The notes beneath the pieces were generated by a model. The model did no database searches and was not told where the DNA came from. It saw only the letters and a program-made list of their open reading frames with translations. Of a stretch of DNA of 39,174 nucleotides, positions 22,528-24,912 are shown piece by piece. Position 1 is the first letter of the stretch. Each line of letters starts with the position of its first letter. The position numbers and the translations under genes are program-made. The stretch is from contig JAAUSV010000002.1 in NCBI GenBank assembly GCA_012032525.1, positions 1 to 39,174 on the forward strand, given 5' to 3'. The stretch comes from Leptolyngbyaceae cyanobacterium SL_7_1 (GTDB lineage: Bacteria > Cyanobacteriota > Cyanobacteriia > Elainellales > Elainellaceae).

Positions 22528-23435
22528 ATGGTTTTACCAATGCCATCCTCTTTAATTTCCCACCCAGAGACGACTCAAACCCTAGAGAATCAACTCCAAC
22601 CTCCTGTGCTCTCTAGCAGTTCCTATGGTTGGGAAAATATTTTAGTGGAAGAATTTTCCAGCTGCCAGGGCAGGAAAACTACCAAAGTTCAACTGAACAT
22701 ACCCTTTGCCTATCGTTGAACCGTCGCCCCTCTCGTCTGTTGCAGGTGATTGGCGATCGCCGTCACACCAGCCTATCGAGTAAGGGTGATTTATCGATTG
22801 CGCCCATCGGAGTTTTTTTCTTTAGTCAATGGGAGCAGCAAGACCACTACTTACGCATTCAACTTGCATCTAGTTTTGTAGACCAAGTTGCTCAAACCAC
22901 GATCAATGGTAGCGCCGGTCAAGTAGAAGTATTACCTGAATTTCGCGCTAGAAATCCTGAAATTGAACAAATCAGCCTAATGTTGTTGAGCGAGATCCAA
23001 AACGGTGGAATGGCAGGGCAACTCTACGTCGAATCCCTAACAACCGTACTGGCAGTCAGCCTACTCCGGCACTCCGCCACCCAACCCTGCATCACGCCGT
23101 ACCTTGGCGGCTTGAGTCAGTTTCAACTACTGCAAGTCACCGATTATATTCACGATCGCCTAGCCGACGAGATTCAACTTGCTGATCTAGCTGAGTTATT
23201 GGGATTGAGCCAGTTTCACTTCAGCCGACTGTTTAAGCAATCTGTGGGAGTACCGCCCTATCAATATCTTCTACAACAACGGGTAGAGCGAGCCAAACAG
23301 TTGCTTAAGATGACCGACCAATCGATCATGGAAATCGCATTACGGTGTGGTTTTAGTAGTCACAGCCATTTGGGCAAATGGTTTCGGCACTTTGTGGGAA
23401 TGACGCCCAAAGCCTTTCGCTCTGAACAAGGCTAA
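22528..23435 (+). pseudogene. AraC family transcriptional regulator, one frameshift
   Basis: A DNA-binding regulator of about 300 residues. The N-terminal part has the YGWENILVEEF segment and then, in the next frame, QLPGQENYQSSTEHTLCLSLNRRPSRLLQV, typical of this cyanobacterial AraC group. The C-terminal AraC domain has two helix-turn-helix units: IQLADLAELLGLSQFHFSRLFKQSVGVPPYQYLLQQRV and SIMEIALRCGFSSHSHLGKWFRHFVGMTPKAFR. The frames meet at the T-run 22654-22657 (one base missing). As read, the first frame stops at 22719. It is divergent from the MATE exporter (182 bases between start codons), so it is a candidate regulator of it. Its stop overlaps the convergent kinase stop in CTAA at 23432-23435. 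Confidence 0.85.
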
Positions 23436-24912
23436 GCATCACTGCTGGGTTGATTACTACAGGCTTCAGTCAGGTAAGGCAGACTCAGCACATAGCGATA
23501 GCCAACTTCTGATGATCCTTGAATACTGAGGCTGGCGTTATGTAGTTCTGCCAAACGATGACTGAGCAGCAAGCCCAAATTCTGACGTGAGCTGCTTGAT
23601 TTAAGACAATCTGCATCTGTCGAAGTTTCAGTCAAAACCACTGCTTCAGCCCTTGGGCGGGTGATATCTGTGTCCCATTCTCGCCGACCCAATTCGATCG
23701 GAGGGGAGGCTAGATCAAAGGATGGGGCAGACTCGATCAGCATCCGATGAGCATAGATCTCTGCCTGGGGCAATCCCTCTCCCAACCAGAGATGGGAAGT
23801 CCAAAGAGAGAGATTTAATCGGTTTTGGCGTCGTGAGACATGTAGCCGAATCGTACTGTTTGCACTAGACGAGTGAATGACATTAAACAACAAGTGATAA
23901 AGAATTTGCCGGACTTTGTCCTTGTCCAGCAACCAAAGCCGCGAACCGGGTTCCACGGTCAACTGTATTTGCTGCTCTCGCCGTTGCGCAACGCGATCGA
24001 GGGCTACCAAGATTTGCTGACACAACATTTCAATATCAGTCAATGTCAAATTCAGCCGATCGCTGCGATCGTCTAACGCGCCTAGTTCCAACACTTCATT
24101 CACCAATGCCAATAAATGCTGGCTACTAGTATGGACAATGTTGGTATATTCCCTTTGTTTTTTGGTTAAGGGACCGTAGATCTCCCGTGTCAAGATACTC
24201 GCCATGCCTAAAATCGAGGTCAGGGGAGTACACAGCTCTTGAGTCATCTGGGCAATCAGCGCTGTTTTGGTTGACTGAAGCGTTGTCAGGCTAACGGTTG
24301 ATGCACTGCGATCGCTACTCAGTGATGCTAAACCAGATAAATGCTCATCTAGTTGATGGAGTAGAAAATTTCGTTCAAACTCGCTCATACACCAACGGGC
24401 TACAAGTTCTAGGAAATTAATATCCTTGGCGGCAAACTTGTGCGGGTTGGTATCCATTACGGCTAATGTGCCTAAACAGCACCCTTCGGACGAGATCAGG
24501 GGAACTCCCAGATAGGCTTGAATCCCATAGCGCTGGGCTAACAAGCGATTGGCAAAGTCAGGATGGGACAACACATCGTCCAACATAAATGCTTGCTGAC
24601 TTTCCAACACTTGAGTGCAAAACGATTCCTGTCGGGGGAGTTGGCGGGTTGTGACCAATTCGTTCATCAAGCCGATGCGTGATAGCCCGACTGATGACTT
24701 AAACCAATGACGATCGCGATCGAAAACCCCAAAATGCAGATGGGAATGTCTAAAAAATGGGCGGCTGTTTGGACGGCTTCGTCAAAAACTAGCACTCCAT
24801 TTGCATCGAGTGCCCCCAGCTTAGAGAGAATATTGAGGCGCGTTTGTTCTCGATCGCCTTCCAGCGATGGATCTAGAGGACAAAATAACCTGGTTTCAGG
24901 GTCTATCATCAC
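23432..24912 (-). pseudogene. GAF-domain sensor histidine kinase, degenerate, one frameshift
   Basis: A cytoplasmic sensor: a GAF domain (about residues 29-180 of the joined protein), a dimerisation/H-box region, then a HATPase-like C-terminus, total about 493 residues. The GAF part is split. The first frame ends at 24667, but one missing base near 24721 (plus strand) joins it to DRDRHWFKSSVGLSRIGLMNE, the standard GAF core, in the second frame. Two features argue against normal kinase activity. The H-box reads MTQELCTPLTSIL, with Gln (about residue 225) where the phosphorylated His should be. No DxGxG loop is visible in the ATP domain, although the N-box-like YHLLFNVI and the GLLLSHRLAELH block remain. 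It may act as a pseudokinase or light/redox ligand sensor. It is convergent with the AraC gene (4-bp overlap). Confidence 0.85.

Follow-up and report, generated by a model that had tools for sequence, protein, structure and literature searches.

Pseudo-histidine kinases are already known: DivL and CSK are of this kind, and RetS, a regulator of GacS, is a kinase-like regulator. DivL has neither kinase nor phosphatase activity and binds DivK~P, according to the available part of the published account (PMC4211667). CSK, in an excerpt of the study describing it, binds ATP despite a modified ATP-binding (CA) domain and carries Tyr or Gln at the phosphoacceptor site in green algae and Glu in higher plants (PMC5054060). 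Here we describe a widespread family of cyanobacterial pseudo-histidine kinases without the phosphoacceptor or the main ATP motif, in which a Gln at the phosphoacceptor position is, as judged from its codons, demonstrably kept by selection. One member is encoded in the stretch of 39,174 nucleotides from Leptolyngbyaceae cyanobacterium SL_7_1 that was analysed here, called the window throughout.

A GAF pseudokinase gene in the window

The gene and its parts lie on the minus strand, as follows.

23432-24734, minus strand: main piece of the pseudokinase gene; the listed open reading frame (ORF), 23432-24670, encodes 412 residues from a TTG, and the frame is open up to 24781
24735-24909, minus strand: N-terminal piece with the beginning of the GAF domain, starting from an ATG at 24909 and in a different frame; it aligns with the family profile at positions 1-62 (E 8.2e-17)
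24723-24734, minus strand: run AAAACCCCAAAA (plus-strand letters); the reading frame shifts in or close to this run, a place where the frame of relatives is unbroken
24386-24637, minus strand: remainder of the GAF domain (Pfam PF01590, residues 12-95 of the 412-residue ORF; E 3.6e-14)
24071-24268, minus strand: DHp (HisKA) domain (Pfam E 3.2e-14)
24209-24247, minus strand: H-box MTQELCTPLTSIL, read from the sequence
24239-24241, minus strand: codon CAA, which places Gln at the phosphoacceptor position, as in 144 of 158 relatives
23474-23926, minus strand: degenerate CA domain, resembling an ATP-binding domain but scoring under the Pfam cut-off (23.6 vs 26.4 bits)
23768-23803, minus strand: WTSHLWLGEGLP, standing where the DxGxG (G1) motif would be; this replacement is conserved in the family

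The preliminary description had treated 23432-24912 as a single gene frame. The gene is instead spread over two frames, with the change at or near AAAACCCCAAAA, and the first listed start codon in the kinase frame is the TTG at 24670. The accompanying view that other parts of the fold are kept was borne out: in a Pfam scan of the window protein, GAF and HisKA score above their cut-offs and HATPase_c just under, giving an architecture of GAF sensor, HisKA-like and CA-like parts, and the fold of a GAF-DHp-CA histidine kinase is predicted. Pfam found GAF and no PAS domain in the window protein and the relatives scanned. On one side of the gene, an AraC-type regulator gene (22629-23435, plus strand) is convergent with it, the two ends overlapping by four bases; on the other, a large ORF is taken, from its sequence, for a putative penicillin-binding protein.

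The family across cyanobacteria

By its sequence, the window gene belongs to a conserved family of pseudo-histidine kinases in cyanobacteria, with GAF, DHp and CA domains. It is single-copy in its own genome, because the next match of the protein there reaches only E 1.3e-15. Among 40 genomes, its own included, 29 others carry a copy at E below 1e-90 (L009-L037; the L034 match covers residues 1-304 only), with a few more-diverged copies below these. A scan of named genomes with peptide patterns that do not include the site gave 329 relatives, 80 of which were kept, from Leptolyngbya-like cyanobacteria, Nostoc and its kin, Argonema, Phormidium and others. Of 292 genomes drawn evenly across the phylum, 62 have the family at E <= 1e-60. 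Gln was not required in any of these searches.

For reading the site, 174 best ORFs were taken and those identical over the last 200 residues merged, which left 159; one of these (L179) has no residue at the site, so that 158 could be read. The alignment used below (A2) has 124 rows; L029, L177, L178 and L179 were left out, and the Nostoc-like loci L067-L117 were thinned to every third number. Five genomes (group f24, L172-L176) carry a GAF-less version of about 296-299 residues directly upstream of ictB. No GAF part was found within about 2.5 kb on either side of it in these five genomes, and Gln and the DHp-CA part are retained.

Glutamine is retained at the phosphoacceptor position

The H-box of the window protein has Gln, encoded by CAA, and not His at the phosphoacceptor position, as the preliminary description had claimed, and this Gln is conserved. 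Across the 158 distinct cyanobacterial relatives the site is Gln in 144, His in 6, Glu in 3, Ile in 2 and Arg, Ser and Asp in one each; the codons are 76 CAA, 68 CAG, 6 His codons and 8 others. A sequencing error, suggested at the outset as a possible source of the codon, is ruled out, since Gln is found in independent genomes. The suggestion that cyanobacterial relatives share the wording QELCTPL held as far as the Gln goes and not for the wording itself, which is not fixed: EL is followed by Arg in 83 of 124 rows and by Cys in 20. Chance is likewise ruled out as the source of the Gln within the genome. Of its 68 HisKA matches, the 67 others have His in 65, Gln in one (of a DICT-domain family) and an unreadable site in one, in a broken frame; five rows were read as His by eye, where the automatic pattern had taken the wrong residue.

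The codons at the site were followed on a tree of the 124 family rows, with six kinases of the window's genome as outgroup and the site column removed. The tree requires at least 31 changes between CAA and CAG, at least 10 between Gln and non-Gln and at least 5 between His and non-His, counts that are approximate minima because the tree is a quick one with many open forks and joined long branches. With at least 31 silent changes against 10 that exchange Gln for another residue, the codon record indicates that Gln at this site is kept by selection.

Homologues with His had been named beforehand as evidence that would tell against a pseudokinase. They do occur, in 6 of the 158 relatives, but all six lack DxGxG and carry HPWL[GE][DE]G, and those in the tree (L035, L087, L130, L133 and L134) are scattered at tips among Gln rows. 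From this scatter we infer the polarity: Gln would be the ancestral state of the family, and His appears to have arisen late and repeatedly. The proposal of an inherited, conserved pseudokinase family therefore stands, on the Gln of 144 of 158 relatives, the selection indicated by its codons and the DxGxG motif found in 0 of 124 rows.

Linkage to gun4 and ictB

The product of gun4 regulates chlorophyll synthesis, and that of ictB is a membrane protein. The pseudokinase family is genetically linked to both genes. In the 62 even-draw genomes, a set used to lessen bias from close relatives, 36 genomes, from 13 of 19 family groups, have ictB directly downstream (same strand, within 2.5 kb) and 15 genomes, from 11 groups, have gun4 directly upstream, so that one or both are neighbours in 16 of the 19 groups; these are raw counts of gene adjacency, which is not proof of co-transcription. 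gun4, identified by Pfam GUN4 and GUN4_N, was first found upstream in one genome per group (20 loci plus the window). Among 80 named loci and the window, an IctB-family gene follows on the same strand in 51 of 81, as the first gene in 49 and the second in 2. Neither gene is a neighbour in groups f1 (that of the window), f20 and f26; in the window's genome, ictB and gun4 are on contigs other than that of the pseudokinase. ictB itself was found in all 62 genomes searched. Synteny with genes for a DegT aminotransferase, an exosortase and SmpB, seen in the Nostoc-rich named set, was discounted as coming from close relatives.

A REC-GerE (NarL-type) response regulator gene stands within 4 kb upstream of the pseudokinase, on the same strand, in 8 of the 62 genomes. 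Counted by its position relative to gun4, a NarL-type regulator gene is upstream and on the same strand in 10 of 62 genomes (G321, G230, G106, G262, G166 and others), and is a possible candidate for a regulator of gun4. As it adjoins gun4 in two genomes in which the pseudokinase is elsewhere (G039 and G065), its tie may be to gun4 alone. The linked regulator was also considered as Rre1/Ycf29, to our knowledge a universal regulator. Of 68 genomes, 21 have matches at E <= 1e-45; the three smallest of those tried (G025, G149 and G172) have none. The linked gene therefore probably encodes a different NarL-type regulator.

The linkage is a first lead to the process that the family serves. It is also a new clue to IctB, a protein of unsettled function. 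IctB was named a bicarbonate transporter, a role that later work challenged, and has been moved into crops, as related in the available part of PMC7861388. Fully segregated mutants of slr1515 and Synpcc7942_0357 were not isolable, according to an excerpt of PMC4594306.

Predicted fold and proposed role

An AlphaFold2 model of one relative (L009; 124 rows) has a mean pLDDT of 82.9 and a pTM of 0.55, and its predicted fold is that of an ordinary GAF-DHp-CA histidine kinase. Structure comparison with VIA-align matched the GAF part to the diguanylate cyclase 4zmu_B (Z 22.5, rmsd 2.3, 168 aligned) and the DHp-CA part to GacS 7z8n_A (Z 19.3, rmsd 4.7, 221 aligned), DivL 4q20_B (Z 18.0, rmsd 5.9, 215 aligned), HK853 5uht_A (Z 17.7, rmsd 6.6, 225 aligned) and RetS 6dk7_E (Z 17.6, rmsd 4.1, 210 aligned). 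By sequence profile, the nearest solved structures are the GacS chain (7z8n), RetS and HK853. The matches of the modelled kinase part are tied or nearly so and show a common fold, not a function.

The best-conserved part of the protein is the lower half of the DHp, that is, the stretch after the site, the loop and the start of helix 2. Averaged over each part, the frequency of the commonest residue is 0.84 in lower helix 1, 0.85 in the loop, 0.74 in lower helix 2 and 0.77 in upper helix 2; it is 0.70 in the GAF domain, 0.70 in the CA core, 0.51 in upper helix 1 and 0.28 in the lid. As ordinary HisKA kinases conserve the lower DHp too, this pattern argues weakly for docking.

A role other than phosphotransfer would follow from the missing residues, since both the phosphoacceptor His and DxGxG are gone. 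We rank first, and hold with somewhat more belief than doubt, that the protein is a phosphotransfer-dead docking protein that works in the manner of DivL and RetS, under the control of its GAF domain, and that it probably signals by binding a partner rather than by passing phosphate; a phosphatase ranks second, a cryptic kinase third and a decaying relic last. The GAF domain would sense a ligand, and the resulting change would travel down the helix into the dimeric DHp bundle. The face of the DHp, retained even though it is not phosphorylatable on His, would then dock a partner, either an active histidine kinase or a response regulator, whose activity would change without phosphotransfer by the pseudokinase, as with DivL and RetS. 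The process served might, as a guess from the linkage to gun4 and ictB, be tetrapyrrole supply or the function of IctB.

Several observations support docking. First, Gln is present in 144 of 158 relatives, with at least 31 silent changes against 10 changes of residue; DxGxG is found in 0 of 124, and a conserved substitute motif has taken its place. Second, the predicted histidine kinase fold lies near DivL, RetS, GacS and HK853, the lower DHp is conserved, and gun4 and ictB are neighbours. Third, the f24 genomes, although without the GAF part, retain the DHp-CA part with its Gln. DivL, which is neither kinase nor phosphatase, is a precedent for a role that needs no phosphotransfer (PMC4211667). 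The docking proposal is weakened by the His of six relatives and by the missing linkage in groups f1, f20 and f26. A more specific scheme, which we regard as speculative and rather improbable, would read the locus of response regulator, gun4, Gln-type pseudokinase and ictB as a conserved signalling unit in which the pseudokinase reads the phosphorylation of the regulator (or removes the phosphate, with Gln taking part), tying Gun4 control of chlorophyll precursors to IctB.

An alternative is a response-regulator phosphatase, an explanation that we consider unlikely while giving it more weight than any other competitor. Directly after the site, position +1 is Glu or Asp in 112 of 124 rows and position +4 is Thr or Asn in 109, so that the family has, as a sequence motif only, the E/D-x-x-T/N of phosphatase-competent HisKA proteins; the same Glu and Thr may, however, be retained for structure. 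The Gln would block phosphotransfer and may place an attacking water, as a Gln helps to do in some other regulator phosphatases such as CheZ, and it is itself under selection. The NarL-type regulator gene upstream in 8 of 62 genomes agrees with this reading, but it is also found beside gun4 where the pseudokinase is elsewhere. The phosphatase activity of HisKA kinases is, moreover, often aided by an ATP- or ADP-bound CA domain, and the CA domain looks degenerate here. Finally, DivL, the best-studied pseudokinase, is without phosphatase activity and stabilises DivK~P, as far as the available part of PMC4211667 reports.

A rewritten ATP-binding domain

The DxGxG (G1) motif is absent from the C-terminal part of all 124 members aligned in A2. 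The glycine loop, which the preliminary description could not recognise in the window protein, is thus missing throughout: where it would be, the window protein has WTSHLWLGEGLP and the family a conserved HPWLG[DE]G stretch. Against the kinases of the window's own genome, the G1 Asp maps to residue 377 or 378 of the reference row; residue 377 is Val, Thr or Ala in 105 of 124 rows and residue 378 is Ser in 98, followed by His (115), Pro (118), Trp (110), Leu (116) and Gly (112). At the N-box, 98 rows have Ser in place of the Asn and 4 have Asn, the residue found in the window protein. The G2 motif has lost its first Gly; its second Gly survives in 100 of 124 rows. HATPase_c does not reach the Pfam cut-off in either the window protein or L009, and Pfam gave no HATPase_c match in a further relative, L164. 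Structure prediction, proposed earlier as a check on the ATP pocket, gave a confidently predicted CA fold in the L009 model with a low-confidence lid, a long and variable region in which pLDDT is under 50 for residues 404-442.

From these alignments, the main ATP motif is lost or rewritten in the family, and ATP binding by the family appears unlikely, although it might still occur because the N-box Asn is kept in the window protein and CSK, in the excerpted source, binds ATP with a modified CA domain (PMC5054060). The protein could be a cryptic kinase or ATPase that holds ATP in the rewritten site and places phosphate on a partner or on a different residue, as proposed for CSK. We find this improbable. 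The confidently predicted CA fold, the second Gly of G2 and the ATP binding that the same excerpt reports for CSK whose site residue is Gln, Tyr or Glu (PMC5054060) would all agree with it. The complete loss of DxGxG, the N-box Asn of 4 in 124 rows and the HATPase_c scores, under the cut-off in two proteins and without a match in the third, speak against it, as do the six His-bearing relatives, none of which has regained DxGxG.

The frame break in the window copy

The two frames of the window copy were read separately. The assembly, of 500 contigs, seems indel-rich. Its ictB (contig C385:1323-2446, L183) consists of two overlapping pieces in different frames, with the end in yet another frame, and the DICT kinase gene on contig C475 is also broken, into two frames that overlap; the 29 best relatives of this kinase have open frames of 426 to 645 residues. 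Because these two genes are split in the same assembly, an assembly indel is the likeliest cause of the break at 24723-24734.

One member of another family group (L029, genome G031), with Arg at the site, is interrupted at the same place in the gene, near 1440-1460, in a run of G and T and in the opposite direction. This prompted us to consider a programmed frameshift, which seems less likely: an assembly error is simpler, because the two breaks are opposite in direction and the other relatives read at this place are unbroken. That the two interruptions share one place is left as a coincidence, only partly explained. A decaying relic, of which the two frames of the window copy and the interruption of L029 with its Arg would be signs, is very improbable, as most relatives have one intact frame, Gln is retained far better than drift would allow and the split ictB and DICT kinase point to assembly indels.

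Comparison with known systems

In the open-licence literature, searched without locus tags, we recognised no paper describing the Gln-type family or its linkage to gun4 or ictB. As far as that literature goes, three things are new: the Gln-type family, its combination of a selected Gln with a rewritten G1 box, and its tie to gun4 and ictB.

The window's genome holds a second Gln-type family, represented by the DICT-HisKA-HATPase kinase (contig C475:7384-8956; L251:1385-2957). Its H-box, GQELRTPLTT, has Gln as in the family described here, and Gln is present in 28 of 29 relatives read. It has DICT instead of GAF and, unlike the family, an intact ATP domain, with DxGxG in 29 of 29 and HATPase_c at 104.9 bits; such an ATP-competent kinase without a His of its own could act on a partner.

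CSK, the homologue of cyanobacterial Hik2, shares with the family a GAF sensor, the loss of His and modified CA motifs, as set out in the available part of PMC5054060. On the same partial source, CSK retains part of G1 and binds ATP, whereas the family is without any DxGxG; the likeness to CSK and Hik2 is a likeness of features. The DHp-CA part of RetS (Pseudomonas) is among the nearest to the family by both sequence and fold. The sensor region of RetS differs from the GAF domain of the family; according to the title of structure entry 7n0e, RetS binds another kinase, GacS. In DivL, as in the family, the phosphoacceptor His is conservedly replaced and the histidine kinase fold is kept, with poor or no use of ATP to be expected; DivL combines PAS domains with Tyr at the site (in Caulobacter), where the family has GAF and Gln.
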